Assembly (NCBI RefSeq): GCF_014652235.1 | Contig: NZ_BMYK01000008.1 | Location: 124,001 to 188,000 of the forward strand | DNA from: Pseudorhodoferax aquiterrae | GTDB taxonomy: Bacteria; Pseudomonadota; Gammaproteobacteria; Burkholderiales; Burkholderiaceae_C | Direction of reading: 5' to 3' | DNA length: 64,000 bases | Part shown: one piece after another, positions 49,281 to 62,862 of the stretch | How the letters are laid out: every line of letters starts with the position of its first letter | How positions within the stretch are numbered: position 1 is the stretch's first letter | Made by a program: the position numbers and the translations under genes | The notes under the pieces: model-generated | What the model saw: only the letters and a program-made list of their open reading frames with translations | Databases searched by the model: none | What the model was told of the DNA's origin: nothing

Positions 49281-49787
49281 CTACGACATGCTCTGCATCA
49301 CCAGCGCTTGCAGGATGCGGTGCCGCTTGTGTTGCAGTGGGTCGGCTCCCGCCAGATGCTGAGCCAGCGCATCTGCATGGGCGGCCGCGCCGATGTAGCC
49401 GGCTCGAACGGCAACGGTGGCGGATCGCGCCAAACGGTCGACCACTGCGTCGGGCAGGCCATCGCACACGACCGCATCGTACAGGCGGCTGAGCAGCCTG
49501 GCGGTGTCCTCGACCGTCTGCGGCGCGCTGTTCAGGTGCAGATCGGACACCAGCACTGCCACGTTGGCTCCCAGGCCAGAGGCAGCGTTTCGGAAGTCTT
49601 CCAGTCCAGCAACATGCCTGCTGGCACAGAGCAGCACGAGATTGCGATGTTTGAACGGCGCCGGCCGGGAACCTGACATCGGCGCATGCCCCAAGCGCCG
49701 GGCACATTCGAGCACTGTGTCGAGAGCCGGCCACGCAGGATCCAGGCGCGGGAGGTGCGCAGCAAGCGGTTTGGAGGCGTTGAGCAT
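49281..49787 (-). CDS. Truncated ornithine carbamoyltransferase-like protein lacking the carbamoyl-phosphate site
   Basis: A 168-residue protein resembling only the N-terminal (carbamoyl-phosphate) domain of ornithine carbamoyltransferase. The pattern VEDTARLLSRLYDAVV (residues 92-107), then LPDAVVDRLARSATVAVRAG and AHADALAQHL, follows OTCase order (xDTARVLxRxxDAI, VLEELAxxAxVPV, HPCQxLADLL). The STRTR motif is replaced by SRHVAGL (56-62), the Arg after the DAI stretch is missing, and HPCQ is reduced to a lone His137. Catalysis is therefore unlikely. It is divergent from the Crp/Fnr gene, with an FNR-type site and a TCTAGT -10 box placed for its own promoter. Homology is inferred from memory of the family. 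Confidence 0.6.
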   Translation of the reverse strand: MLNASKPLAAHLPRLDPAWPALDTVLECARRLGHAPMSGSRPAPFKHRNLVLLCASRHVAGLEDFRNAASGLGANVAVLVSDLHLNSAPQTVEDTARLLSRLYDAVVCDGLPDAVVDRLARSATVAVRAGYIGAAAHADALAQHLAGADPLQHKRHRILQALVMQSMS

Positions 49788-49819
49788 GTGGCGGTCATGG
49801 CTGGTGCCGGATGCCCAAG

Positions 49820-49859
49820 ACTAGAGGCATCGGGCGGGCGGTCCGTTGTTCTCCGTCAA
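49820..49859 (-). promoter_or_regulatory. FNR-type box 1 with -10 box (OTCase-like gene)
   Basis: TTGTTCTCCGTCAA (49846-49859) fits TTG-N8-CAA. On the minus strand TCTAGT (49820-49825) lies 27.5 bp from its centre, as in class II FNR promoters, and leads to the OTCase-like gene. The same site is 147 bp ahead of the crp/fnr start and could also mediate autoregulation. Confidence 0.6.
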
Positions 49860-50006
49860 ACACTGCAGCATGGGCCGCCGGCCGAACGCCTGATACACGC
49901 GGTTCACGCAGTGTTACGGAGCAGTTCCAAGCGTTGGCACGGCCGTGCAGTGCGATGCCTAGCATTGGTGCTCGAGCCATCCTTAGTCGACTGCCAGGAG
50001 CACCCC

Positions 50007-50774
50007 ATGTTCAACGCCATCGAAGAGGTTCGCGACCGCACCCACTGGTTGAGCGATGTCGATCCGCTCCGACATCCGGGGGCGCCAGATGCGCGCATCG
50101 CGTTCAGTCAACGGATCGTGCAGACCCTCGACCTGGTGCAATCCTCCGCGGCATTGCAGCGTCGCCTGGTGCACGCGGGCGACACCATCTACCAGGCCGG
50201 GCAAGCCTTCGAGAATCTGCACATCCTGAGCACAGGGTGCGCCAAGATCGTGAGCCTGAGCGCCGACGGCCGCGAACAGGTCGTCGGCTTCAAGTTCAAA
50301 GGCGACTGGATGGGTTTCGACGGCATCGCGGACGCTTGCCATCGCTGCGATGCCATCGCCATGGACACCGGAGAGGTCTGGACCATCGGCTACGACGCTT
50401 TGCTGGCCGGCTGCGCCAAAGCGCCCGCACTGCTCAAGCTGCTCCATGCGGCCATGAGCCATGAGATCGCGCACGACCGCGACTCATTGATGTCGGTCTG
50501 CACCTTGCCTGCCGAAGCCCGCGTCGCGGATTTTCTGCTGCAATGGGTAGAGTCCATGGCCAAGCGGGGCCTGCGCACCGATGCGATCACGCTCAAGATG
50601 ACGCGCGCAGAGATCGGGAACTACCTGGGCATGGCACTGGAAACCGTCAGCCGCACGCTGTCCCGCCTTGCGCGCGAGAACATCATCGACTTCGTGGAAA
50701 AGGGACGACGCGACCTGCGCATCGCCGACCCCCAGGCGCTGCAGGGCTTCGTCCGGCGTTACGGGGTCGTTTGA
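50007..50774 (+). CDS. Crp/Fnr-family transcriptional regulator
   Basis: A 255-residue regulator with an N-terminal cyclic-nucleotide-binding fold (about 45-165), a long dimerisation helix, and a winged helix-turn-helix with recognition helix ETVSRTLSRLARENI. The Glu-x-x-Ser-Arg pattern is the one that reads TTGA(T/C) half-sites in FNR. The N-terminus has no cysteine cluster, so it cannot bind an FNR-type oxygen-sensing 4Fe-4S cluster in the usual place; a CHRC pair occurs near residue 112. It is thus closer to FixK/DNR-type members. AGGAG precedes the ATG. It is convergent with the hybrid kinase gene (5-bp gap). Confidence 0.9.
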   Translation: MFNAIEEVRDRTHWLSDVDPLRHPGAPDARIAFSQRIVQTLDLVQSSAALQRRLVHAGDTIYQAGQAFENLHILSTGCAKIVSLSADGREQVVGFKFKGDWMGFDGIADACHRCDAIAMDTGEVWTIGYDALLAGCAKAPALLKLLHAAMSHEIAHDRDSLMSVCTLPAEARVADFLLQWVESMAKRGLRTDAITLKMTRAEIGNYLGMALETVSRTLSRLARENIIDFVEKGRRDLRIADPQALQGFVRRYGVV

Positions 50775-50779
50775 CCGCC

Positions 50780-52873
50780 TCAGGCCGATCGCTGGGCTTG
50801 CGCCGCCAGCACGCGCGCGATGGCCTGCGCCAGCTGTTGCCGCGAGAACGGCTTGGCAAGGACCTCCCAGCTGGAAGATCCGTGTCCCTCTGCATGGACC
50901 AGCTCGGCCGAGAAGCCGGACATCAGGAGCACGGGCAGATCGGCCAACTGCCGCGCATGCCGTGCCAGGTCGGTGCCGCGCATTCCCTGACCGAGCGCGA
51001 TGTCGGTCAACAGCAGGTCGAAACGTCCATCTCCTTGCAGCTCTGCCAGGGCTTCCTCAGCGCTGAACACCTGGGTAACGACGCAGCCCATCGTTGTCAG
51101 GAAGCTCCGCACCACCTGCCGGACCTCAGGATCGTCCTCCACCATCAAGACCTTCAGCGCCGAAGGCAGGCGCGTCGCGTCCGCTTCGGCCTCGCCAGCA
51201 CAGGGAAGCGCGCGCCCTCCCCGTGGCAGGTACAGCGCGAGGGTCGTTCCCACCTGCGGGACGCTGTCGATGGCGACGGCACCACGTGACTGCTTGACGA
51301 AGCCATAGACCGTGCTCAGCCCCAGGCCAGTTCCACGGCCCTTGTCCTTGGTGGTGAAGAACGGCTCGAATGCGTGTTCGCGCACGTGTTCGCTCATGCC
51401 GCATCCGGTGTCGGAAACGCTGATCAGCACGAAGCTCTCCGCGGTGGCGGTCGGGTCGTCGAGCCCGAGGCGAACGGAGGCCGGCAGTGTCTGGCAGGGT
51501 TCGGCGCTGAAGGTCAGCGTCCCGCCCTCCGGCATGGCGTCCCGAGCGTTGATCGCGATGTTCAGCAAGGCCGATTCGAGCTGGCCAGGGTCAGCGAGCA
51601 CCTGCGGGCAGTCGGCGGATTGCTGCAACGCGATGCGGACGCGCTGGTCCAAGGTACGTCGCAGCATGTCCACGAGCGACTGCATCAAGGCCCCGAGATC
51701 GACCGCCGTCGGCTGCAACACCTGTCGGCGCGAGAACGCCAGGAGCTTGCCCGTCAGTTCCGCGGCACGGCGGCTCGCGCGCGCGGCGGCGGCCAGCAAC
51801 TCCGGAGCCACCCCATCCGATCGCAACGCGGGCAGCTCGTCCAGCACCTGGAGATTGCCCTGGATCACGGTCAGAAGGTTGTTGAAGTCGTGCGCGATGC
51901 CCCCGGTCAACTGACCCACGCTCTCCAGACGCTGCGCGTGGTTCAGCGCTTCCTCGGATTGCGCGCGTTGCAAACTGGTCGACAGCAGGCTGGACAAGGA
52001 TTCAAGAAAGCGCTTCTCCTCGTCGCCGAAGCGCTTGGGTGTCCGCGAGCGCACGGCCAGTGTGCCGATGACGCGGCCGCGGTCGTACAGCGGCACGGCC
52101 AGGGCACTGACCAAGCCCGCCGCAAGGTAAGCCGGGGGAACACGAAAGCGGCGTTCGCTGCGGTAATCCTCCACTGTGATGGCCTCGCCTTGGAGCAGCA
52201 GGAATCCCGCCGCCTTGTCCGGGTGCGCCCCAAGGCGCGCGCCGACCTCCTCGCCGGGCAGCAGGCCGACGCCACCTGCCACGCGGAACTCCTGGCGGTC
52301 GGGGTCCAGCAGCACGACCATTGCCAAGGGCACCTGCAGGGCTTGTGCGGCGATGGCCGGTGCGATCTCCATGAGCACATCCGCCTCCCGCGCGTCCACC
52401 GCCTGGCGCCCGAAGTTGGCGAGGTGCTCGCTGTAGCGGGCACGTTGCAGGGCCTGTTGCACGCGTGGGTATGCGCCGATGCCGCGGATCGCAGCCACCA
52501 CCAGAGGCAGGCCATCCCCCTGCAATGGGCTCAGCGCGATCTCCACCATGACCTCGCTGCCGTCCTTGTGCTTGGCGACCAGGTCCATCTGCGTGCCCAT
52601 GGGCCGTGCGCGCGGCGCCCGCTCGTAGCCCTGCCGATAGGCCGCATGGCGTGGACGGATGCCGTCCGGCACCAGTGCATCGACGTTCAGCGCAACGAGC
52701 TCCTCGCAGCGATAACCCAGCAGCGCCGCCGCCGCCGGATTGGCCATGGCGATCCGGCCCGTGTGTTCGACCACGAGCAAGGCATCCGGGTATGCGGCGA
52801 AGAGCGAGCGAAAGACCGTGCGTTCGTCGATGCCTGCCGCAAGCGCCAGGGCTGGAGGCGGTGCGGATGGCAT
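50780..52873 (-). CDS. Hybrid sensor histidine kinase (PAS-GAF-HisKA-HATPase-REC)
   Basis: A 697-residue cytoplasmic hybrid kinase without membrane helices. A PAS domain (about 20-135) is followed by GAF (about 160-310), HisKA with the phospho-His in GGIAHDFNNLL near residue 327, HATPase with N box LLNIAINARDAMPEGG and G box GRGTGLGLSTV, and a C-terminal receiver with Asp in LLTDIAL near residue 623. It lies 19 bp downstream of an OmpR-type regulator gene on the same strand, forming a two-component pair. A soluble PAS-GAF input suggests an intracellular redox, gas or small-ligand signal; no haem or flavin ligand residue can be named. Confidence 0.9.
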   Translation of the reverse strand: MPSAPPPALALAAGIDERTVFRSLFAAYPDALLVVEHTGRIAMANPAAAALLGYRCEELVALNVDALVPDGIRPRHAAYRQGYERAPRARPMGTQMDLVAKHKDGSEVMVEIALSPLQGDGLPLVVAAIRGIGAYPRVQQALQRARYSEHLANFGRQAVDAREADVLMEIAPAIAAQALQVPLAMVVLLDPDRQEFRVAGGVGLLPGEEVGARLGAHPDKAAGFLLLQGEAITVEDYRSERRFRVPPAYLAAGLVSALAVPLYDRGRVIGTLAVRSRTPKRFGDEEKRFLESLSSLLSTSLQRAQSEEALNHAQRLESVGQLTGGIAHDFNNLLTVIQGNLQVLDELPALRSDGVAPELLAAAARASRRAAELTGKLLAFSRRQVLQPTAVDLGALMQSLVDMLRRTLDQRVRIALQQSADCPQVLADPGQLESALLNIAINARDAMPEGGTLTFSAEPCQTLPASVRLGLDDPTATAESFVLISVSDTGCGMSEHVREHAFEPFFTTKDKGRGTGLGLSTVYGFVKQSRGAVAIDSVPQVGTTLALYLPRGGRALPCAGEAEADATRLPSALKVLMVEDDPEVRQVVRSFLTTMGCVVTQVFSAEEALAELQGDGRFDLLLTDIALGQGMRGTDLARHARQLADLPVLLMSGFSAELVHAEGHGSSSWEVLAKPFSRQQLAQAIARVLAAQAQRSA

Positions 52874-52892
52874 GGCTTTGCAGGCAATGCCA

Positions 52893-53642
52893 TCAGCAGC
52901 GGCTGACGGCCGGAACGAAGACGTAGCCCACACCGCGGACCGACTTGATGATCTGCGGGAACTCGGGATCCGCTTCCATCTTCTTGCGCAGGCGCCCCAC
53001 CTGCACGTCCACGGTGCGGTCAAATGGTCCGGCCTCGCGGCCGCGGGTCTGGACCAGCAAGACGTCGCGGGACAGGACCCGTCCCGGCCGCCGCGCGAAC
53101 ACGCAGAGCAGTTCGAACTCGCCGGTCGTCAGCGGAACCTCGTGGCCTCGCGGATGCGTCAGCGTGCGGCTGGCGGTGTTCAGTTGCCAGCCCTCGAAGG
53201 CCAGCGTCTCGGCCGCGGCAACGCCGACGCGCGCTGCCGGCTGCGAAGCGGGGCTGCGCCGCTCTGGCGCCTGCTGCACCCGCCGCAGCACGGCCTTGAC
53301 CCGCGCGACCAGTTCGCGCAGATCGAACGGCTTGGTCACGTAATCGTCCGCACCGACCTCCAGGCCCACCACCTTGTCCACAGGGTCGCAGCGGCCCGTG
53401 ACGATGACCAGGCCGCAGCGCCAGTGCTCGCGCAACTGCCGGGCGATGGAGAACCCGTCTTCGCCCGGGAGCCCGAGATCCAGCAGGACGACGTCGGGCG
53501 CGTCCTGCGCCATCAAGGCCATGAGCGAAGCCCCGTCATGGACCTGGGACACGCGGAAACCATGGCCTGCCAGGTACCGGGCCAGCAGGGCCGTGATGTC
53601 GACTTCATCGTCGACGACAACAAGATGGACTGCGGTGCTCAC
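52893..53642 (-). CDS. OmpR-family response regulator
   Basis: A 249-residue receiver (Asp55 in LLDLGLPGEDG, acidic pair at 11-12, Lys in TKPFDLRE) plus winged-helix DNA-binding domain (about 145-245). A linker of about 25 residues (QQAPERRSP...) is longer than usual. GTG 53642 begins just before the first beta strand; longer in-frame extensions are not protein-like. It is the first gene of the operon with the hybrid kinase. Confidence 0.9.
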   Translation of the reverse strand: MSTAVHLVVVDDEVDITALLARYLAGHGFRVSQVHDGASLMALMAQDAPDVVLLDLGLPGEDGFSIARQLREHWRCGLVIVTGRCDPVDKVVGLEVGADDYVTKPFDLRELVARVKAVLRRVQQAPERRSPASQPAARVGVAAAETLAFEGWQLNTASRTLTHPRGHEVPLTTGEFELLCVFARRPGRVLSRDVLLVQTRGREAGPFDRTVDVQVGRLRKKMEADPEFPQIIKSVRGVGYVFVPAVSRC

Positions 53643-53823
53643 GTCTGTGGAAGGACGGTCGGGTGCGTCCAGTTTAGTCAGCAAGGCTGTTTTGGGCGAG
53701 CGTCCGGGACGAACGGCGCACGCCCGGCGCGTCCACGCTTGGCGCAGTGCAAGCCTCCGATGGCCTGGGGCTTGGGCCTGCCGACGCCAAAGCGCACGCA
53801 GGACGAGGGGCGCTTGCCAATCC

Positions 53824-53864
53824 CTGATCGGCGTCAAACGCATGCGCGCGCATCCACGTAAGGT
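53824..53864 (+). promoter_or_regulatory. FNR-type box 2 with -10 box (coiled-coil protein operon)
   Basis: CTGATCGGCGTCAA (53824-53837) is followed by TAAGGT (53859-53864), 28.5 bp from the box centre. The next start codon is at 53889. The rest of the 53643-53888 gap shows no gene. Confidence 0.65.
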
Positions 53865-53888
53865 AGGCGCTTTCAGCGGAGACCGACC

Positions 53889-54491
53889 ATGGCCATTTCC
53901 AGACCATTGCTTTTTCTGTACGCCGCCTTGATCGCAACGGCCGCGTGCGCAGCCTCCACTACCCCCGCGACTCCACCGGCCTCTGCCTCCCGGAACAAGG
54001 AGGCGAACACGGAAGGAATGGGCCGCGCCGCAGAGGCCGCGCAGTCGGCAGCAGTGCGCGCTCATGCGGCTGCGGAGCGCAGCAAGGAGGTGGTGGGGGA
54101 TCTGAGCAAACGAACCGCACTGGCGATCGTGCATCTTGCAGCGAAGGCCGACGCGGCGGCGCGGGCCGCTGCCAGCCAGTGGCGCGAGCAGGTGAAGCTT
54201 GCACGCAGCGAAGCGCGCGAAGAGATCGAGCGGGTGGACGAGCAGCTGCGGCAGGCCGCGCAGGCCAGCGCGCAGGCGCTGGACCGCGCGAAAGAAGCTG
54301 CACGAGCCAGCGTGCACAAAGGGGAGCAAGAAGCAGAGCGCGCCGCCGCTGCCGCCCGCGAAGCACTTGCACGCGCCGAGGCAACCGCAAATGACGCCGC
54401 CCGAGCGGCTGCCGACGCCGCCCGCAAGGCGCTCAAGCGACCGGGCCGCAAGCATGACACCACCGAAGACCAGCCCGGCGACCCGGCTTGA
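53889..54491 (+). CDS. Exported Ala-rich coiled-coil protein, uncharacterised
   Basis: A 200-residue protein with a signal peptide (about 1-21, ending ATAACAAS, possibly a lipobox with Cys20). A Thr/Pro-rich spacer follows, then a continuous amphipathic helix (about 45-185) rich in Ala, Glu, Arg and Lys with heptad character and no Gly or Pro. The tail is basic and then acidic. The composition recalls late-embryogenesis-abundant, apolipoprotein-like or phasin-like helices, but I do not recognise a family. GGAG precedes the start and an FNR-type promoter stands 51 bp upstream. It is probably the first gene of an operon with the GGDEF-EAL protein. Confidence 0.7.
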   Translation: MAISRPLLFLYAALIATAACAASTTPATPPASASRNKEANTEGMGRAAEAAQSAAVRAHAAAERSKEVVGDLSKRTALAIVHLAAKADAAARAAASQWREQVKLARSEAREEIERVDEQLRQAAQASAQALDRAKEAARASVHKGEQEAERAAAAAREALARAEATANDAARAAADAARKALKRPGRKHDTTEDQPGDPA

Positions 54492-54542
54492 GCGACCCGG
54501 GGGCGAAGGCCCAGCGCACGCCCATCCTCTACCAAGGAACGC

Positions 54543-54761
54543 ATGACCGTCACCGCCGCACCAGCAGCTGAACCGCAAGCGTCGGCGCTGCCAGACCTGG
54601 GCAATCCCCTTGCGCATGGCAGCTGCATGGTCGGCGGCCGGCCGGCCGCACTGTCCGATCTGCGGGTTCCCATCGCTGCCGTCGGCACGCTCACGCACCG
54701 CAGCTCCCCCTGGCGATCGGTCTGCAAGCTGCACCGGCCTGGGAGCGACGTGGCGACATGA
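54543..54761 (+). CDS. Possible small protein between the coiled-coil and GGDEF-EAL genes
   Basis: A 72-codon frame starts at ATG 54543 with AAGGAA 3-8 bp upstream, and its stop codon overlaps the next gene's ATG (ATGA), so it may be translationally coupled. The peptide has no hydrophobic segment, no motif and a rather random composition, so it may simply be a spacer. Confidence 0.3.
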   Translation: MTVTAAPAAEPQASALPDLGNPLAHGSCMVGGRPAALSDLRVPIAAVGTLTHRSSPWRSVCKLHRPGSDVAT

Positions 54762-56446
54762 CCCCGTACCACGAACAACCCGAGGTGCTGGCCCAGGCGA
54801 TCATCGCGTCGGCGCCGGACGGGATCTTGCTTGTCGACGACAGCAACCACATCCTGCTGGCCAATTCAGCAATGGAGAAGATCTGCGGCTACACGCGCAC
54901 CGAGCTCGTGGGGCAGCCGGTGGAAATCTTCCTGCCGCCCCAGGCCCGGGAGCGCCACCGGACCAACGTCCAGCGTTATGCAGCCAACCCACAGCAGCGC
55001 CCCATGGGCATGGTGGAGAATCTGTCATTGCAGCACAAGAGTGGCCGCATGGTCCCGGTCGACATCGCCCTCGGGCAGGTGGTCCGCGACGGCGGTCAGG
55101 CCACCGTCGTCTTCGTGCGCGACATCACCGGCATCAAGGAACTGCAACGCCAGATGCAGTTCCACGCCACACGTGACACGCTGACGGGCCTCGCCAACCG
55201 CTGGATGTTCAACCAACACCTGGCGCAGGCGTTCCGGCAGATGGGGCGGCAGCCCGGCAAGCTGGCCTTGCTGCTGCTGGACCTGGACGACTTCAAATCC
55301 GCCAACGACCGCCACGGCCATGCCGTGGGCGACCTGGTCCTCGTGGAGGCCGCCCGGCGCATTGCCGCGTCCGTGCGCACCGGGGATGTCATTGCCCGGC
55401 TGGGCGGTGACGAGTTCGTCGTGCTGCTGCGAGAGATCGGAACCTCGGACGCGGTGGTCGTGGCCGAGAAGATCGTGGAAGCACTTGCGCAACCATGCAT
55501 GGTGGAAGGCCACGGCATCACGCTGGGTGGCAGCATCGGCATCGCGTACTGTCCGGACGATGCCCAGGACGCAGACACCTTGATGCGGTATGCCGACATG
55601 GCCATGTACCGCGCCAAGTCGCTGGGCCGCGGGCAATGCGCCGTCTACTCCGCAAGCATGGCACAGCAGATCGCCCATCGCGCTCGGGTGCGCGACCGGC
55701 TCAAGCTCGCGCTGGACGCTGGAGAGCTGCAGCTGTGCTACCAGCCGCAGATCCGTCTGCCTGGGCAGACAGTGACGGGCGTCGAGGCCTTGCTCCGGTG
55801 GACCGACGCGGAGCTGGGCGAGCAACACCCGGCAGACTTCATCCCGATCGCCGAGAGCGCCGACCTGATCGTGCCGATCGGCGAATGGGTCATCGAGATG
55901 GCCTGCCGACAAGCCGTCGCATGGCGCGATGCGGGCATGCCGCTACGGGTCGGCGTCAACCTGTCGGCCAGGCAGTTCCGCAACGAAGCCCTGGCCGACC
56001 AGATCCGGACGACCTTGGAACGCCATGGGCTGGATCCTGCGTTGATCGAGCTGGAGATCACGGAGTCGGAGGCCATGGCAGACCCCAAGCGAACCGGGCA
56101 ACTGCTCAAGCGGCTGCGAGGACTGGGTGTGGCCATCGCGCTGGACGACTTTGGCACAGGACATTCGTCGCTGGCCTACCTGCGCGAGCTGCCCGTCACC
56201 CGGTTGAAGATCGACAAGGCGTTCATCCGTCCGATCGGCGAGCCTGGGAGCGAGACGGTGCTGGTGAAGGCGATCCTGGCATTGGCCTCCACCCTGGGCC
56301 TGGAAGTGGTTGCGGAAGGCGTGGAGACCCGCGCCCAACTGGACTTCCTGCGTGACAACGGCTGCAACGCCTACCAAGGTTGGCTGTTCGCCAAGGCCGT
56401 GCCGGCGGAGCGCGTGACGGCGCTGGTGCAGGCCATGCAGCGCTGA
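54758..56446 (+). CDS. PAS-GGDEF-EAL cyclic-di-GMP signalling protein
   Basis: A 562-residue cytoplasmic protein with PAS (about 10-125), GGDEF (about 140-295) and EAL (about 310-555) domains. The diguanylate cyclase motif is an intact GGDEF (in RLGGDEFVVLL). The phosphodiesterase side has EALLRW, NLSARQF, ITESEAM, DDFGTGHSSL, KIDKAFI and EGVETRAQ, all needed for metal binding and hydrolysis. It could therefore make and destroy c-di-GMP, with PAS setting the balance. No membrane helix is present. It sits between two FNR-boxed genes and probably belongs to the operon that starts at 53889. Confidence 0.93.
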   Translation: MTPYHEQPEVLAQAIIASAPDGILLVDDSNHILLANSAMEKICGYTRTELVGQPVEIFLPPQARERHRTNVQRYAANPQQRPMGMVENLSLQHKSGRMVPVDIALGQVVRDGGQATVVFVRDITGIKELQRQMQFHATRDTLTGLANRWMFNQHLAQAFRQMGRQPGKLALLLLDLDDFKSANDRHGHAVGDLVLVEAARRIAASVRTGDVIARLGGDEFVVLLREIGTSDAVVVAEKIVEALAQPCMVEGHGITLGGSIGIAYCPDDAQDADTLMRYADMAMYRAKSLGRGQCAVYSASMAQQIAHRARVRDRLKLALDAGELQLCYQPQIRLPGQTVTGVEALLRWTDAELGEQHPADFIPIAESADLIVPIGEWVIEMACRQAVAWRDAGMPLRVGVNLSARQFRNEALADQIRTTLERHGLDPALIELEITESEAMADPKRTGQLLKRLRGLGVAIALDDFGTGHSSLAYLRELPVTRLKIDKAFIRPIGEPGSETVLVKAILALASTLGLEVVAEGVETRAQLDFLRDNGCNAYQGWLFAKAVPAERVTALVQAMQR

Positions 56447-56449
56447 AAC

Positions 56450-56488
56450 TTGCGCAACGTCAAACGGCGCTGCGACGGGCTCTCTAGA
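56450..56488 (+). promoter_or_regulatory. FNR-type box 3 with -10 box (phasin-like and Usp genes)
   Basis: TTGCGCAACGTCAA (56450-56463) is followed by TCTAGA (56483-56488), 26.5 bp from the box centre. The next start is the phasin-like ATG at 56517. Confidence 0.65.
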
Positions 56489-56516
56489 GTTGCCTCCATG
56501 TCAAGGAGAGATCGCC

Positions 56517-57053
56517 ATGGCCCGCAGTATTCCCGCCCCTTCCAATGCTCACATCGCCTCCCATCCGCCAGAAGTCGCCCGCGACGCTGCCGCAGCCGCC
56601 GTGGATGCGGAGGTGCAAACGCACCACCGCTTGCTGCTGTGCCTGGAGCAATCGCGGCGTGCACAGCTCCAGATGGTGCACGACTGCATGCGCGACATGC
56701 TGGGCACAGCCCGAACCCTGTCGACCAGTACCGACCAGGGCCAGTGGTTGCAAGCGTCGACGGCATTGGCCTGGGGCCTGTGCGCGCGCGGCCTGTCGGC
56801 CCAGGCCACGATGTCGGCCGCCTGGTCCGAGTTCCAGCGTTCGGTTCTCGACCAGGCGCGCACCAGCGGAGAGGTCGCCCAGGCCGGCAACTGGCCCTTG
56901 GCGTCAGCGCAGCCGGCCACGCCGGGCAAGCCCAGCGCTGAAGGTGCCGATCCGCAATGGCTGACGCAAGCGATGCGAAACTGCGAGAAGCTGGCGACGG
57001 CCTGGACGTCCGCATGGATGCCCGGCAGCCTGCAGACCGAGACACCCCGCTGA
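56517..57053 (+). CDS. Phasin-like protein
   Basis: A 178-residue soluble protein, largely amphipathic helix, with no signal peptide. A first helical part (about 25-110; AVDAEVQTHHRLLLCLEQSRRAQLQM, then several Ser/Gln/Ala heptads) is followed by a Pro-rich linker and a short C-terminal helix (WLTQAMRNCEKLATAW). Length and pattern suit phasin-family proteins, which coat polyhydroxyalkanoate granules or bind DNA, but the match is by character and not by a clear motif. AAGGAGAG precedes the start. A universal stress protein gene follows after 67 bp. Confidence 0.5.
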   Translation: MARSIPAPSNAHIASHPPEVARDAAAAAVDAEVQTHHRLLLCLEQSRRAQLQMVHDCMRDMLGTARTLSTSTDQGQWLQASTALAWGLCARGLSAQATMSAAWSEFQRSVLDQARTSGEVAQAGNWPLASAQPATPGKPSAEGADPQWLTQAMRNCEKLATAWTSAWMPGSLQTETPR

Positions 57054-57120
57054 AACAGTCGGCGCTGGCCTGCGCGACAGCGGCCGGCGCCACCGTCGCA
57101 TCTTTGGTGGAGGGCATCCC

Positions 57121-57939
57121 ATGACCGTCATCCAGTCGATCCTGCTGCATCTGGACAGTTCCGCCCTGTGCGCGGAGAGAGCGCGCATAGCGCACCGCCT
57201 TGCGCAGCAGTTCTCCGCACAGGTGAGCGCCGTCTACAGCGTGACGCCCTCGGTGCTGCGCTATCCGATGGGCCTGGACGGGCCTGCCGGTGCGCTGGGC
57301 TTGGAGGAGTACGACGCGCAGTGCCGCCGTGACGCCGGTCGTCTGCTCAGGGATGTCGACGCGAACGTGGAGCGCATGCGGTGGGAAGACGTCCCCGGGG
57401 ACGCCATCGCCGAGTTCGAGCGGCGCGCCTTCTATGCCGACTTGGTGGTGCTTGGCCAGCGCGCGAACGATTCTGCGCTGGCGGCGCAGACCCCTGCGGA
57501 CTTCGTGCCCCGGCTGGTCGTGCACAGTGGGCGGCCGTGCCTGGTCGTCCCCTGCGTGGGCTCCTTTCCCGTGGTGGGCCGCACGGTCGTCATTGCCTGG
57601 AAGCAGACGCGCGAAGCCGCGCAGGCGGTCACAGCGTCCCTGCCCTGGCTGCGCACGGCGCAGGCGGTGCACGCCCTCGGCTACGGCGAAGGCGCGGCGG
57701 ATCCGCTCACACGGCTGCAGGCCTACCTGCAAGGCCACCACGTGAACATCACGATCCACCCGGACCCGGGACGAGACGTCGATGTGGGAGAGGACTTGCT
57801 GTCCCGGTCGGCAGACCTCGCCGCAGACCTGATGGTCATGGGTTGCTACGGCCGCTCCAGGGCACGCGAATGGGTGCTGGGCGGCGTCAGCCGCTCGGTC
57901 CTGCGCGGGATGACCATCCCCGTGCTGATGGCCCATTGA
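57121..57939 (+). CDS. Universal stress protein, tandem-domain type
   Basis: A 272-residue protein of two Usp folds. The C-terminal half keeps the ATP-loop pattern G-x2-G-x9-G-S/T (VMGCYGRSRAREWVLGGVSRSV). The N-terminal half has the fold, but its loop is degenerate (LGQRANDSALAAQ), so only one half should bind nucleotide. It is closely similar in layout and C-terminus to the 305-residue protein at 61785. Such proteins support survival in low oxygen or stationary phase. It lies downstream of the phasin-like gene under the same FNR-type promoter. Confidence 0.88.
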   Translation: MTVIQSILLHLDSSALCAERARIAHRLAQQFSAQVSAVYSVTPSVLRYPMGLDGPAGALGLEEYDAQCRRDAGRLLRDVDANVERMRWEDVPGDAIAEFERRAFYADLVVLGQRANDSALAAQTPADFVPRLVVHSGRPCLVVPCVGSFPVVGRTVVIAWKQTREAAQAVTASLPWLRTAQAVHALGYGEGAADPLTRLQAYLQGHHVNITIHPDPGRDVDVGEDLLSRSADLAADLMVMGCYGRSRAREWVLGGVSRSVLRGMTIPVLMAH

Positions 57940-58023
57940 CCGCAGGCGTGGTGGCCGGGGCCATGCAGCCCCCGGGCAGCTGCGGTCTGCGCGGGCCTCC
58001 GGATGGCCGACATCCCGTGCGGC

Positions 58024-58482
58024 TCAGCTGTCCTGGTCAGGCGCCCGGCCCCGGACGGTCAGAACGGGCACCTTGGAGAAGCGGATGATCTGTTCCGCGC
58101 CGCTTCCCAGCAGGACGCGGCCCAGGCCGCGCCGGCCGTGGCTGCCCACGACGACCAGGTCGGCCTTCCACTGGCTCGCCTCTTCCGCAACGGACTGCCC
58201 CAGCCGCTGACCCTCCCGGTCGATCAGGTGGGAGCTGGCGTCGATGCCGGCGGCGCGGCAGATCTCCAGGCCCTCGGTGAGCACACGGTCCGCATCCCTC
58301 CTGGCCTGGTCCAGCAGCGCAGGGCCGTACTCGTACCCGCTGAGGTACACCAACGCGTCCAGGCAGTGCAGCAGCCGCAGTTGGGCGCCTGTACCGTGCG
58401 CCAGCTCGAGTGCCGTCGCCAGGGCCGCCTTGGACGTTGCACTGCCGTCCAGCGGAACCAGGATCTTCGTGAACGTGGACAT
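58024..58482 (-). CDS. Universal stress protein UspA-type, single domain
   Basis: A 152-residue Usp with an intact ATP-binding loop (VVGSHGRRGLGRVLLGSGAEQI) and the N-terminal ILVPLDGS strand with Asp. It probably forms a homodimer. It is the second gene after hsp20 on the same strand (18-bp gap), so both are expected to be expressed together. Confidence 0.93.
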   Translation of the reverse strand: MSTFTKILVPLDGSATSKAALATALELAHGTGAQLRLLHCLDALVYLSGYEYGPALLDQARRDADRVLTEGLEICRAAGIDASSHLIDREGQRLGQSVAEEASQWKADLVVVGSHGRRGLGRVLLGSGAEQIIRFSKVPVLTVRGRAPDQDS

Positions 58483-58500
58483 GGTGGTGAGCCCGCGTCT

Positions 58501-58935
58501 TCAGGAGATCTGCAGCACCGAGCCCTTGGCCTGGGCTCGCTTGGGCAAGGTCAGCGTCAATACACCGTCCTTGAACACCGCGGCGGAGTTCTTGTCGTCC
58601 ACCTCGCAGGCCAGCGTGAACCCGCGGGCCATGCTGCCGTAGTAGCGTTCGCGCGTCAGCACACGCTCGCCGTCCTTGGTTTCCTTCTCGTCCTTGACCT
58701 CGGCGCTGATGGCGACGTAGTTGCCCTCGATCTGCACGCGCAGGTCTTCCTTCTTCGCACCGGGCACCTCGGCCTTGACCGTGTAGCGCTCGTCCGTCTC
58801 GCTCACGTCGATCTTGATGTCTGCGCCGTCGCGCAGGGCGGGCAGGTCCGTCCGACGCATGACGCGCCGGAACAGGTCCGAGAACGGGTCGGCCATCAGG
58901 TCTTCCAGACGGTCGAATCTTGTCAATGCACTCAT
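58501..58935 (-). CDS. Hsp20/alpha-crystallin small heat-shock protein
   Basis: A 144-residue small chaperone that holds unfolding proteins in large oligomers. The alpha-crystallin domain spans about 38-135 (IKIDVSETDERYTVKAEVPG, then the LRVQIEGNYVAISAE and GVLTLTLPK strands). The C-terminal I-x-I tail is replaced by LQIS at the end. AAGGAG lies 7 bp before the ATG. The promoter is probably the FNR-type element about 200 bp upstream, leaving a leader of some 170 nt. Confidence 0.93.
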   Translation of the reverse strand: MSALTRFDRLEDLMADPFSDLFRRVMRRTDLPALRDGADIKIDVSETDERYTVKAEVPGAKKEDLRVQIEGNYVAISAEVKDEKETKDGERVLTRERYYGSMARGFTLACEVDDKNSAAVFKDGVLTLTLPKRAQAKGSVLQIS

Positions 58936-59462
58936 GGTTAGCTCCTTGGGTTGAATGAACTGGTTTCAGAACTCCGCTGGAAATCCACTGTAGAGACCTC
59001 GCGCGCAGGCGGCTTGCGCGGCATCAAGCTCGTCGCGTCCCGCACGCGCCGCAGCTTGCGGTGGACGTCAACGGCGCGCGGTGGAGTAAGCCCAGCAGCG
59101 GTGCGAGCCATGCTACGCAGGCCACCACGTCGACGCTCTGACGGGCGTCAAACCAAGACGCAGGCCAGCCAGACGACGCCAGGGTGCAGCGCAGTCTGGC
59201 GACGCAGTCTCCGCCAGACTGCGCATCTGCGCGGCGCTGGCACCGCGGTCCGAAGCATCGGCGCAGAGGGAAGCGCCGCGTCCGACACGAAACCTTGACG
59301 CCCCGCACAGCGTGCGCACCGGTGCCGGAAACGGCGTCGGCGCTGCGCTGGTTTGTTCTGGCGCAAGTCCCGAACGCCGGCTGTGCCTAGACTTTTTGGC
59401 GCGGGAGTTGACGTGCCGCGCCGCGGCAGTCCTGCACAGCAACACAGCGCAAAGTAAACACC
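58936..59462. other. 527-bp intergenic region between hsp20 and the BON remnant
   Basis: I see no protein-coding gene. Contents: the hsp20 leader, an FNR-type site at 59138-59151 and a pair of inverted-repeat-like GC stretches around 59150-59260. No convincing promoter for the plus-strand gene at 59463 was found. Open frames on the minus strand (about 90-125 codons) have Arg/Cys-rich random composition. Confidence 0.5.
59110..59151 (-). promoter_or_regulatory. FNR-type box 4 with -10 box (hsp20-usp operon)
   Basis: CTGACGGGCGTCAA (59138-59151). On the minus strand it is TTGACGCCCGTCAG, followed by TAGCAT (59110-59115), 29.5 bp from the box centre. It points towards hsp20 with a long leader. 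Use for the plus-strand gene at 59463 cannot be excluded. Confidence 0.55.
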
Positions 59463-59663
59463 ATGAAGACCGACGTGCAACTGAAGGACGACATCCTGGC
59501 CGAGCTCAAGTGGGCCCCTGATGTCCACGCAACCGATGTGGGCGTGATCGTCAAGTCACCCTGCGCGGCAACGTGCACTCGTGGGCACGTGGTCAATGCA
59601 TTGACGGTCGACCAGGTCGGCCTGAGAGGCTTCGCACGGCGCGCCCGGTCACCATCCCGCTGA
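59463..59663 (+). pseudogene. BON-domain (OsmY-like) gene remnant
   Basis: The first 31 codons match the start of a BON protein (MKTDVQLKDDILAELKW, then VGVIVK). At 59556 the expected sequence jumps to another frame: TLRGNVHSWA, the core BON strand, begins at 59558 in the third frame, as if about 10 bp were lost. At 59589 VVNALTV, the end of a BON domain, returns in the original frame, with about 17 residues missing between. The surviving open frame of 66 codons is thus a decayed or recombined copy. It ends 10 bp before the PaaK-like gene. Intact BON proteins bind membranes or lipids and accompany Hsp20 and Usp genes in stress clusters. Confidence 0.6.
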
Positions 59664-59673
59664 GCACGATCCG

Positions 59674-61056
59674 ATGTTGCCTGCGTTCGATCCTGTCCAG
59701 AGTTGCGCGGTCGCGTTTGACGTGATCGCGGCGGGATACGCGAACGCCCCGTCCCTGGACAGGCGCCGGGAGATGCGGCTCGCGATGCTGCTGGCAGCGG
59801 CCGTCGAGCGCTCGCCGTTGTACCGTCGGGCGTGCGGCGGCACCCGGAATGTTCCGGCGCTGCAGGATTTTCCCGTGGCGACCAAGGCCGACCTCATGGC
59901 GCGCTTCGACGAATGGGTCACCGACCGCCGCCTGGATCTCGAGTCGGTGCGTCGTTTCGTGGCCGACCCCGCGCGCATTGCCGAGCCGCTGCGCGGCCGC
60001 TACACGGTGTGGGAGAGTTCAGGGAGCAGCGGACAGCCCGGTCTCTTCGTCCAGGATGCCAAGGCCATGGCGGTGTACGACGCACTGGAGGCGTTCAGGC
60101 GCCCCCCGCAACTGGCGTGGCCCCAGCTGCTCGATCCGATGCTGCTGCTCCAGCGGCTGGCATTCGTCGGCGCGACAAACGGACACTTTGCAAGCTTCGT
60201 GTCGCTGGAACGCATGCGGCGTCTGAACCCCCTGGCGGCAATGCGTTGTCGCAGTGTGTCGTTTCTGCAGCCGGTCCGCCGCATCGTCGCGCAGGTCGAT
60301 GCCTGGTCTCCAGCGGTGCTGGCCACCTATCCCAGCGCGGCGGTCATGCTCGCCGAGGAGAAGACCGCAGGGCGGTTGCAGTGCAAACCGCAAGAAATCT
60401 GGACGGGCGGCGAGAATCTGACGCCGGCCATGCGCGCGTTCATCGCCACGGCGTTCGGCTGCCGTGTACTGGACAGCTACGGTGCTTCGGAGTTCCTGGC
60501 GCTGGCATGCGAATGCAGCCATGGCCGCTTGCACCTCAACAGCGACTGGGCGATCCTGGAATCGGTGGACCGGGAAGGCCGCGCGGTGGCGCCCGGAACG
60601 GCAGGCCACCGAACGCTGCTGACCAATCTGGCCAACCACGTGCAACCCATCATCCGTTATGACCTCGGCGACCGCACGGTGCTGCACGCGGCGCCGTGTG
60701 CGTGCGGCTCCGCACTGCCCGCCATCGAGGTCTGCGGCCGTGAGGACGACGTGCTCCATCTCGGGAACGCCGAAGGGTCGCCCGTCAGCGTGCTCCCGCT
60801 GGCGCTGTGCACGGTGCTGGAGGAACAAGCCGGACTGTTCGATTTCCAGATCCATCAGGTGCACCGGTGCGAACTGGAACTGCGCGGCGGACCCGGAACG
60901 AGCGAAGCGGCGCACACCCTGGCGCGCGCCAAGCGTGCGCTCGAAGACTATCTTCGTGGCAGCGGCGCCCACGGCGTGCGCATCCGCTGCATGCATGGCG
61001 TGCCCCTGCGCAAAGGCCGCAGCGGAAAGGTGCAGCGCGTGGTGGGCATGTCTTGA
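59674..61056 (+). CDS. PaaK-like adenylate-forming enzyme, substrate unknown
   Basis: A 460-residue member of the phenylacetate-CoA ligase group of adenylating enzymes. It has the P-loop variant WESSGSSGQPGLFVQD near residue 110 (SSGSSGQP in place of SSGTTGxP), ENLTPAMRAFIATAFGC, YGASEFL as the adenine motif, IRYDLGDR, and a C-terminal lid with GRSGKVQRV carrying the likely catalytic Lys. It has a CACGSALP cysteine pair (Cys-x-Cys) near residue 347, common in PaaK-type proteins that bind zinc. No phenylacetate pathway gene is nearby, and it stands alone among stress genes. A CoA- or carrier-linked activation of an aryl or fatty acid is the general expectation. Confidence 0.8.
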   Translation: MLPAFDPVQSCAVAFDVIAAGYANAPSLDRRREMRLAMLLAAAVERSPLYRRACGGTRNVPALQDFPVATKADLMARFDEWVTDRRLDLESVRRFVADPARIAEPLRGRYTVWESSGSSGQPGLFVQDAKAMAVYDALEAFRRPPQLAWPQLLDPMLLLQRLAFVGATNGHFASFVSLERMRRLNPLAAMRCRSVSFLQPVRRIVAQVDAWSPAVLATYPSAAVMLAEEKTAGRLQCKPQEIWTGGENLTPAMRAFIATAFGCRVLDSYGASEFLALACECSHGRLHLNSDWAILESVDREGRAVAPGTAGHRTLLTNLANHVQPIIRYDLGDRTVLHAAPCACGSALPAIEVCGREDDVLHLGNAEGSPVSVLPLALCTVLEEQAGLFDFQIHQVHRCELELRGGPGTSEAAHTLARAKRALEDYLRGSGAHGVRIRCMHGVPLRKGRSGKVQRVVGMS

Positions 61057-61137
61057 GGCCCGGCGTCAGCCAAGGCCATGATCAGCCCACCAGGCCGGCG
61101 GGACTGCGCCGCGCGATCCGGCGCGCGTCACACGGCC

Positions 61138-61662
61138 TCAGGCAGCCTGCGGCGAGAGTTCCGCCGGCCGCTGCGGACCGGGTTCACCCTGGCCCACGAT
61201 GGCTTCGGCGATGCCGCTCAACCGGCCTGCACACGAGCCGTCCTGGACCTCCGCCGTCGTGAAGGCCGCGCTGAGCAGCGGTGCGCGGCCGAACATGTGC
61301 TCGATCTCGGCATCGGCGCGCGCCGCACCGCGGCGCCCCATCACCGAGAGCAGCGCATAGTGACGCGTGCGCGATGCCATGCGCGCCACGAAGCTCCGCA
61401 TGGGGCTGGCCGCTCGCCCCGCCCAGATCGGAAAGACGAGCACGACCGCACCGAAGTCGTCGACTGCCGGCCCGTCGTAACGGATCTGCGGATGGCGGTG
61501 CAACGCGGAATCGAGCAGGCAGCGCACCAGTCCGCGCCAACCGGCGCGGCCCGACGCTTCGCTGATTTCCCCCATGGGCCAACCGCGCTCCGCGCAGAGG
61601 CGCTGGGCCAGGAGCCGGCTGCTGCCGGTATTTGAATAGACCACGACCAGCACGCTGCGCAT
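61138..61662 (-). CDS. Flavodoxin-like protein
   Basis: A 174-residue protein with the flavodoxin phosphate-binding loop VVYSNTGSSRLLAQ at residues 6-19 and the second conserved strand AVVLVFPIWAGRAASPMRSFV, which positions the FMN ring. It resembles NAD(P)H-dependent flavodoxins/WrbA-type or protoporphyrinogen oxidase HemG-type proteins; the exact role is open. GGAG precedes the ATG at 61662, and an FNR-type promoter lies 30-70 bp ahead, shared divergently with the tandem Usp gene. Confidence 0.8.
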   Translation of the reverse strand: MRSVLVVVYSNTGSSRLLAQRLCAERGWPMGEISEASGRAGWRGLVRCLLDSALHRHPQIRYDGPAVDDFGAVVLVFPIWAGRAASPMRSFVARMASRTRHYALLSVMGRRGAARADAEIEHMFGRAPLLSAAFTTAEVQDGSCAGRLSGIAEAIVGQGEPGPQRPAELSPQAA

Positions 61663-61692
61663 CGCTTTGCTCCTGTACCAATGGTCCGAGCA

Positions 61693-61733
61693 ACTGTAGG
61701 CTGCACGGCGCGCACTGGTTTGCGCTGCGTCAA
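61693..61733. promoter_or_regulatory. FNR-type box 5 in the flavodoxin/Usp divergent promoter
   Basis: TTGCGCTGCGTCAA (61720-61733). On the minus strand TACAGT (61693-61698) is 28.5 bp from its centre and leads to the flavodoxin gene. In the plus direction the Usp ATG is 52 bp away, but its -10 is weak. Confidence 0.65.
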
Positions 61734-61784
61734 ATGCGGTACCGACAAGCCTGCCACCATCGGACGGCATCGAAGGAGAGCACC

Positions 61785-62702
61785 ATGCCCACACTCGCCC
61801 CCGCCATCGACGCCAACGCGCGCGAAGCCCTTGCGCCGACCGATGGCGCTGCTCCCACGGCCACGCTGGGCTCCTGCAAGGCGCAGAAGAGGCTGCGCCG
61901 CATCCTCGTGCACATCGACGATGCGTCGAGCGCCGTGCTTCGCCTCGTCAGCGCCCGGACCTTGGCGGGAGTGTTCGACGCAGGGCTGCTGGCCTGCTAC
62001 TGCACGACGCCCAGTGCGAAGTGGCACGCGCTGGAGGTCGGCCTCACCCTGCGCGGGATCGACCGCTGCGACGAAGAAGACTACGCCAGAGGCCGGGCGG
62101 CCTATGACGCCTTCGCCCAGACCTGCGAGCGGCTTTCGGATGTGGACTGGCTCGACCTGTGCGGGGAACCTGAACAGGCGTTCGAACGCGAAGCGCTGTA
62201 CGCAGACTACCTCGTGCTGCAACGACCTGACCGGTTGAACCATGTGGCTGGCGTCTCCGCGTCGTTCGTTGACCATGTGCTGGTCCGGTCCGGGAGGCCG
62301 GCCGTCGTGCTGCCACCGCGTGGCGTGCTCCGTCAGATGCCCCGCACGGTGGCGATCGCCTGGACCGAGTCGCCGGCGGCAGCCCGCGCGCTGGCCAGTG
62401 CCATGCCGCTGCTTCGTGAAGCAAGGAACGTACACATCATCGGATGCGGTGAAGGGGCTTATTCCTCGGTCGCCGGCCTTGCCGCGCGGCTCGAAGCGCG
62501 GGGATCGGTGCCGCGCTCCCACATCCTGGAGGATGCCGGGTCGGATCTGGGAATTCCCCTGCTCAACTGCGCGGCCAGGCTGGGTGCCGATCTGCTGGTC
62601 ATGGGGTGCTTCGGGCACAGCCAGACCAGGGAGCGTGTCCTGGGCGGTGCCTCGCGCACTGCGCTGGACCGCGCTCCGATGCCCTTGCTGGTGGCCCACT
62701 GA
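61785..62702 (+). CDS. Universal stress protein, tandem-domain type
   Basis: A 305-residue two-domain Usp with an extra N-terminal tail of about 40 Ala-rich residues. The C-terminal ATP loop is VMGCFGHSQTRERVLGGASRTA; the N-terminal domain lacks a regular loop (LQRPDRLNHVAGVS). The pattern closely matches the 272-residue Usp at 57121, including the final PMPLLVAH, so the two are paralogues. AAGGAGAG precedes ATG 61785. The 160 bp after it (62703-62862) hold no gene that I can support. Confidence 0.88.
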   Translation: MPTLAPAIDANAREALAPTDGAAPTATLGSCKAQKRLRRILVHIDDASSAVLRLVSARTLAGVFDAGLLACYCTTPSAKWHALEVGLTLRGIDRCDEEDYARGRAAYDAFAQTCERLSDVDWLDLCGEPEQAFEREALYADYLVLQRPDRLNHVAGVSASFVDHVLVRSGRPAVVLPPRGVLRQMPRTVAIAWTESPAAARALASAMPLLREARNVHIIGCGEGAYSSVAGLAARLEARGSVPRSHILEDAGSDLGIPLLNCAARLGADLLVMGCFGHSQTRERVLGGASRTALDRAPMPLLVAH

Positions 62703-62862
62703 GCCCCGCCCAGGGTTCGCCAGCCCTCACGACGCAAGCGCTCGCCAGCCCCGTGACGCCCGGCAGCGGACTGGATGCGCGCAGCCTTGCCGTGCTCGAC
62801 CGTTTCGGTGCGCTCGGGCGCCTCGATCGACCGGAGCAATTCGCACGGATGGCGCCGGCCCG

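Follow-up and report, generated by a model that had tools for sequence, protein, structure and literature searches.

What signal reaches a block of stress genes whose local transcription factor lacks the iron-sulfur (Fe-S) cysteines of Fnr? The question is raised by a 64,000-nucleotide stretch of Pseudorhodoferax aquiterrae DNA (contig NZ_BMYK01000008.1, positions 124,001 to 188,000; the window), in which a Crp/Fnr-type regulator gene at 50007 lies beside universal stress protein (Usp), Hsp20 and other genes preceded by FNR/FixK-type boxes. The initial annotation held that this regulator, without N-terminal Fe-S cysteines, controls the whole region in response to low oxygen or nitric oxide (NO). 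The local box regulon stands, whereas oxygen or NO sensing by the regulator itself is unsupported, as the Fe-S cysteines are gone and a separate conserved element occupies its promoter; without the cluster the regulator would have no oxygen sensing by that means. The reading we lean toward, from sequence comparison, is a relay that would work like the rhizobial hFixL-FxkR-FixK system, with a heme-PAS kinase, a response regulator, an FNR-like regulator, and class II boxes on stress genes.

In such a relay, low oxygen would lead the heme-PAS hybrid kinase (50780-52873) to hand phosphate to the OmpR-type response regulator (52893-53642). The response regulator would bind direct repeats at 49891-49925, centered at -61.5, and turn on the FNR-like regulator at 50007, a step suggested by a conserved element and by co-occurrence of the two proteins. 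The regulator would in turn bind TTGAY-N4-RTCAA or TTGCG-N4-RTCAA boxes at about -41.5 and activate a gene resembling ornithine carbamoyltransferase (OTCase), an exported coiled coil, the pair of 56517 and a usp gene, hsp20-usp, a flavodoxin-like gene, and a usp-MBL-ATPase run. The core of the locus is made up of the following features.

49281-49787, minus strand: OTCase-like pseudoenzyme, carbamoyl-phosphate domain only, STRTR loop missing; target of the box at 49846
49818-49823, minus strand: -10-like hexamer TAGTCT, 29.5 bp from the center of box 49846
49891-49925, plus strand: R-element upstream of the regulator, direct repeats of about 10.5 bp with a K-box-like core TTCACG-N4-GTTACG at 49903-49918
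49960-49965, plus strand: regulator -10 hexamer TAGCAT; the R-element core is centered at -61.5 from the inferred start
50007-50774, plus strand: Crp/Fnr-type regulator, no Fe-S cysteines, E-x-x-S-R recognition helix
50780-52873, minus strand: PAS-GAF-HisKA-HATPase-REC hybrid histidine kinase, predicted heme-PAS oxygen sensor
52893-53642, minus strand: OmpR-type response regulator (shorter reading 52893-53630)

This cassette plan, with an OTCase-like gene, a divergent regulator, a convergent PAS-GAF hybrid kinase and an OmpR-type response regulator, is common to relatives in many Burkholderiales. Among 399 genomes sampled across the family (141 genera), a regulator match at E 1e-45 or better was present in 89 genomes, the window's own included, and in 39 genera. 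Two sets of loci were compared. The first contains 40 loci of 20 kb each (some shorter), and the second the best 80 of 249 named stretches from Variovorax, Rhizobacter, Piscinibacter, Pelomonas, Roseateles, Polaromonas and others; the sets share genomes and so are not independent.

The five 14-mers reported by the initial annotation are all found on the plus strand between called genes, two of them in the CTG form. Both strands of the window together hold 11 matches to YTGN6GTCAA, where shuffles give an expectation of 2.06. A position weight matrix (PWM) trained on 32 boxes upstream of the regulator's relatives, with the window excluded, puts the five sites at ranks 1, 2, 3, 5 and 7 among all window positions; rank 4 is an hsp20 box at 59014 that had been missed, and rank 6 is a coding site.

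49846-49859: FNR/FixK-type box TTGTTCTCCGTCAA, PWM rank 1, serving the OTCase-like gene
53824-53837: box CTGATCGGCGTCAA, -10 TAAGGT at 28.5 bp, toward 53889
56450-56463: box TTGCGCAACGTCAA, -10 TAGAGT at 28.5 bp, toward 56517
59014-59027: box TTGCGCGGCATCAA, PWM rank 4, -10 TACAGT at 28.5 bp, toward hsp20
59138-59151: box CTGACGGGCGTCAA, second and farther hsp20 box, -10 TAGCAT at 29.5 bp, toward hsp20
61720-61733: box TTGCGCTGCGTCAA, -10 TACAGT at 28.5 bp, toward the flavodoxin-like gene
67650, just past the window: seventh box TTGCGTTGCGTCAA, -10 at 28.5 bp

The -10 geometry ascribed to these sites is borne out, with a TANNNT hexamer starting 28.5 or 29.5 bp from the box center at all five of them. 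The same spacing is seen at 59014 and 67650, and thus at all six window boxes and the one outside; 1.1% of 7475 intergenic window positions show TANNNT at such a distance, in either direction. Across 102 box-gene pairs from relatives the hexamer lies at 28.5 bp in 28 and at 29.5 bp in 13, with counts of 0 to 2 at the other offsets from 10.5 to 51.5, and because the spacing peaks in this way, the boxes look like class II promoters. Boxes centered 40.5 bp from the called start also recur before P-type ATPase and Usp genes (e.g., L068:2207, L092:12678 and L067:492), an arrangement in which the messages would be leaderless.

As a definition of a regulon across the genome, the form of the motif given in the initial annotation, YTG-N6-GTCAA, had to be abandoned. 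It is not specific alone, with 512 matches in the 7.11 Mb genome against 344 for a control in which the pattern is read backwards, and its CTG form is mostly coding in relatives. Within the 40 loci, TTG-N6-GTCAA is found at 76 intergenic and 8 coding positions, while CTG-N6-GTCAA, at 7 and 37, has hardly any intergenic bias. The palindromic TTGAYN4RTCAA gives 76 intergenic strand hits to 2 coding, and PWM scores of at least 18 bits fall 42 to 1, these same loci having supplied the training boxes. A box lies less than 500 bp upstream of the regulator match in 33 of the 40 loci by a looser pattern, and the matrix places one upstream of the regulator in 73 of the 80 named loci, at a threshold also reached by 196 of 1004 other genes of those loci. 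A box lies no more than 300 bp from 129 of the 744 called genes, among them 26/28 OTCase-like, 33/44 Crp/Fnr, 11/39 response regulator, 10/19 UspB-like and 39/539 unlabelled genes; Pfam matches of the 39 unlabelled genes include HemN (5), hemerythrin (4), BON (2) and others. No fixed orientation of the odd half-site was seen when relatives' boxes were inspected by eye, without counting. Boxes upstream of orthologues in related genomes are therefore conserved, with intergenic bias and the -10 spacing kept. This strongly supports a local box regulon of the FNR/FixK type beside the Crp/Fnr gene, and its boxes are almost certainly genuine FNR-family class II sites.

Of all targets of the box, the OTCase-like gene is the most constant, in agreement with the assignment of 49846 to it. 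In 68 boxed loci, counted after removal of near-copies, TANNNT faces this gene at 28.5 bp in 50 and at 29.5 bp in 13 (63 of 68 together). Class II autoregulation of the regulator from box 49846 was rejected on the same peak, which points the other way, and the offset of 28.5-29.5 is absent from the eight top -10 offsets toward the regulator. The window protein falls just short of Pfam OTCace_N (29.1 bits, cut-off 29.9), but its AlphaFold model (pLDDT 89) has OTCase as top Foldseek match (E 7.4e-07). It shares with ornithine carbamoyltransferase the fold of the carbamoyl-phosphate domain and differs in having 168 residues only, with the STRTR loop gone. The loop is also missing in the 38 relatives aligned with it, which were picked from 64 OTCase-like calls in the named loci. 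Loss of the loop in every cassette protein was ruled out, as it holds for 61 of these 64 calls. The three exceptions, all from Rhizobacter (L197, L201 and L203), are full-length at 311-332 residues and keep STRTR or STRER, so that an OTCase-like protein near the cassette is not always a pseudoenzyme.

The regulator itself has the recognition helix attributed to it, E-x-x-S-R in the form ETVSR, a feature of the FNR/FixK group. The absence of N-terminal Fe-S cysteines is equally clear, their motif being present in 0 of 41 cassette regulators and in 26 of 30 canonical proteins; the position of the fourth, central cysteine is Trp in the window regulator. Scores of 129.1 bits against NCBIfam Fnr (cut-off 228) and 69.4 bits against the FixK equivalog NF050806 (cut-off 300) fall below both thresholds. 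The 41 cassette regulators form a single group apart from canonical Fnr with support of 100/100, in a tree whose bootstrap had not settled and in which the neighbors of the group are weakly placed. Orthology to FixKf was discarded, as a Rhizobium FixKf-type protein (L221) averages 60 bits with the 41 cassette regulators and 77 bits with the 30 canonical Fnr.

How the regulator would be switched on is suggested by its own promoter. Toward the regulator, the -10 peak lies about 97-137 bp from the box, and a hexamer is present there in 56 of the 68 loci with the consensus TAGCAT. Upstream of this -10 is a strongly conserved stretch, G(A/T)YAC-N6-TTCAC-N5-GTTAC, the layout of which we take to be that of an OmpR-family site. 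A 35-bp matrix trained on 56 copies, the window copy not among them, gives the window R-element 27.3 bits, and the next best site in 64 kb scores 4.8. Over 159 loci the matrix finds 115 matches above 14 bits near cassette regulators, a count that includes the 56 training copies and overlapping sets, and 2 elsewhere; the core TTYACNNANYGTTAC has a single occurrence in the 7.1 Mb genome, at the regulator promoter. The two matches elsewhere (L141:14301 and L180:8517) precede, by 94 and 111 bp, a small open reading frame of 72-77 residues, alike in both (YELRF..AFAFPCD..GHVDIDALSE), which is a possible second response-regulator target.

The candidate for binding this element is the neighboring response regulator, orthologues of which were defined by at least 280 bits. 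In 398 genomes, both proteins are found in 74, the regulator only in 14, the response regulator only in 1, and neither in 309. Among the 40 loci, 37 have R-element scores of 17 or more, L090 scores 8.6, and two (L093 and L094) score below zero; the latter are the two of the 40 whose genomes are without the response regulator, and five loci without one nearby have it elsewhere in the genome. New upstream regions reach at least 15 bits in 7 of 9 genomes with the response regulator and in 3 of 12 without (p 0.03), and taken together with the 40 loci the counts are 44/47 and 3/14. Several points weigh against a role for this protein at the element. Leaving out one genome, with an R score of 5.1, changes the count without response regulator to 3/11 and p to 0.07; this genome is the weak point because two related genomes with the partner score alike. 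Those two (4.5 and 8.6) are themselves low scorers that have the response regulator, and three genomes without it score high (18.5, 26.2 and 28.2), all three of them fragmented assemblies (G121, G138 and G360, the last 61% complete). The partnerless regulators are also mostly more divergent, which is a confound. With these points counted, the response regulator probably acts at the R-element, which suggests that the regulator is under control of the neighboring two-component pair.

The kinase PAS domain has its best matches in a multi-sensor kinase PAS (10jx, 8.1e-16), the heme PAS sensor 1v9y (7.5e-14), which we take to be E. coli DosP, DosP entries (6.3e-13) and FixL (3.8e-12). Kinase His76, which aligns with the heme-ligating histidine, is kept in 65 of 66 and Met92 in 64 of 66. 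The distal heme side speaks against so direct a parallel, since the kinase has Thr and Met where DosP has Met and Arg, presumably its distal heme-side residues. The kinase is nonetheless likely to sense oxygen by heme. Oxygen may also enter c-di-GMP signaling at the locus, as the PAS of a GGDEF-EAL protein (54758-56446) resembles the heme PAS of FixL (1e-13) and DosP (1.5e-11).

The closest known arrangement is the rhizobial hFixL-FxkR-FixKf relay which, in the portions of PMC7888657 and PMC4999443 drawn on here, likewise joins a hybrid kinase to a response regulator, next to a gene for a Crp/Fnr protein that has no Fe-S cysteines. The rhizobial K-box, GTTACA-N4-GTTACA at -62 of fixK (PMC7888657, same portions), compares at the sequence level with TTCACG-N4-GTTACG at -61.5 here, in the same layout with a differing left half, and the TTGAT-N4-ATCAA boxes downstream of FixK are of the same type as those of the window. 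The kinase is of the hFixL kind by sequence, being a hybrid with a predicted heme PAS in which the His is kept and a receiver domain is present. The systems differ in the GAF domain of the kinase here, and in their surroundings, which are a nitrogen-fixation setting in rhizobia and stress genes with an OTCase-like pseudoenzyme here. The cassette response regulator is the best match of FxkR in G000 (51% identical), and is best in just 5 of 11 cassette genomes. A literature search for the cassette or relay outside rhizobia found no description of it in Burkholderiales, as judged by titles and abstract openings.

The most serious alternative, although unlikely, is that the boxes are read mainly by a canonical Fe-S Fnr sensing oxygen directly, with the local regulator minor or modulating. 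The genome does contain such a protein (C14:27291), with all four cysteines and the same E-x-x-S-R helix, and a box of the same type lies upstream of its own gene, so that the boxes do not name their own reader. The local boxes are also imperfect in one half, and perfect palindromes are found elsewhere in the genome; these points count against a purely local reader. Perfect TTGAYN4RTCAA sites number 21 genome-wide (control 6), 17 of them between called genes and one about 60 bp upstream of canonical fnr, yet none is in this region. The local sites are one-sided and clustered instead: of 29 genomic matches to TTG-N5-CGTCAA (reversed control 54), 4 fall within one 18-kb stretch, C8:173846-191663. 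In cassette loci, TTGCG halves are present in 21 of 57 effector boxes and in 5 of 45 OTCase/regulator boxes (p 0.003). TTGCGN4GTCAA outnumbers its control by 236 to 163 in 19 cassette genomes and stands at 99 to 125 in 13 others (p 0.0004 when pooled, p 0.07 when genomes are compared one by one); the window's own genome has 8 against 13. These patterns hint that the boxes have a reader of their own. It is plausible that the local regulator, not canonical Fnr, reads them, and it is probably a main reader of the boxes.

Alternatively, the regulator may be a direct sensor by other means, through a redox thiol in the hinge S-x-C-T-L-P or through heme/NO as in DNR, with the kinase pair serving something else. 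Of 14 aligned members, at least 90% retain Cys165 and Cys114, the hinge cysteine is not present in five canonical-type Fnr rows of the alignment, and FixK2 is described as under oxidation control in the part of PMC9104804 relied on here. However, the Cys114 position is also a cysteine in most of the canonical Fnr shown, and direct sensing leaves unexplained both the R-element and the co-occurrence of the regulator with the response regulator, so that we regard this as quite improbable. Chance matches in a GC-rich genome, without any regulon, would fit the 512 copies of the loose motif but are opposed by conservation, intergenic bias and -10 spacing in relatives, and can be dismissed with near certainty.

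Returning to the proposed relay, the genes that it would serve, with others lying among them, are the following.

53889-54491, plus strand: protein taken to be an exported coiled coil; no Pfam family reaches its cut-off
54758-56446, plus strand: PAS-GGDEF-EAL protein, the PAS matching heme PAS of FixL and DosP
56517-57053, plus strand: small protein, labeled phasin by the initial annotation, unconfirmed
57121-57939, plus strand: universal stress protein with two Usp stretches
58024-58482, minus strand: universal stress protein
58501-58935, minus strand: Hsp20/alpha-crystallin
61138-61662, minus strand: flavodoxin-like protein (weak; FMN_red E 0.019, below cut-off)
61785-62702, plus strand: universal stress protein
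62863-64000, minus strand, continuing past the window: P-type ATPase, behind MBL-like and Usp-like genes and box 67650

The assignment of box 53824 to the exported coiled coil agrees with its TAAGGT hexamer, which faces 53889 from 28.5 bp away. For 56450, said to serve a phasin/Usp pair, the box and its -10 toward 56517 hold, but the identity of the first gene as a phasin does not, since Phasin_2 gives E 0.29 and 11.8 bits against a cut-off of 24.9 and is not the best match. Box 59138 does have a -10 toward hsp20 at 29.5 bp, as its link to hsp20-usp would require; its center is 209.5 bp upstream of the hsp20 start, and the nearer hsp20 box is 59014-59027. The site at 61720 was assigned to a flavodoxin/Usp pair and has a good -10 toward the flavodoxin-like gene, but just CACCAT toward the Usp gene. 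Box 67650 precedes a run of Usp-like, MBL-like and ATPase genes, the first two labeled by resemblance, of which the last enters the window. A long gap without a called gene (59152-59673) extends from box 59138 to an AMP-ligase-like gene, with a weak box-like site at 59353.

The region at 49800-63900 has a G+C content of 68.1%, compared with 70.3% for 1-49000, and a search of five congeners found no regulator orthologue, the best match there being canonical Fnr (38-41%, none at 1e-45). The lower G+C and the missing orthologue make it possible that 49800-63900 is an acquired island. In Variovorax paradoxus VAI-C (L219, CP063167.1), the cassette lies near ccoNOQP, hemN, phbB, alcohol dehydrogenase, phosphoketolase and usp genes on a 2.48 Mb replicon. 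Usp-rich low-oxygen loci of Burkholderiales are linked to anoxic survival in the section of PMC3759415 used here, and the lxa locus of Burkholderia cenocepacia, as far as it is covered in the sections used of PMC6127331 and PMC3759415, is likewise a cluster with Usp proteins and alpha-crystallin and a low-oxygen link. A plasmid island with similar content in Paraburkholderia has an Fe-S Fnr and other two-component genes instead, so that the kind of local Fnr-type regulator may vary from one such island to another.

A further parallel is found in Herbaspirillum, where usp promoters with hybrid half-sites are under two Fnr paralogues, Fnr1 and Fnr3; in the part of PMC5934665 used here both are described with Fe-S cysteines, which the local regulator is without, and the hybrid half-sites are thought to be possibly bound by Fnr1-Fnr3 heterodimers. 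It is conceivable, if speculative, that a FixK-like relay arose independently in Burkholderiales. A local Fnr would have lost its Fe-S cluster and passed to the control of an OmpR-type regulator, itself fed by a heme-PAS hybrid kinase, and the stress regulon that this Fnr drives today would be of the dormancy type. One-sided effector boxes, with one TTGAY half and one TTGCG or other half, might then be read by heterodimers with canonical Fe-S Fnr, and if this is true, the stress genes would be switched on only when the two oxygen sensors concur.

For a regulator found in 39 of the 141 genera of the family sampled, the locus yields a proposed wiring that is concrete, conserved and testable, with sites at base resolution. 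It suggests that relays of the FixK type extend beyond alphaproteobacteria and beyond nitrogen fixation.

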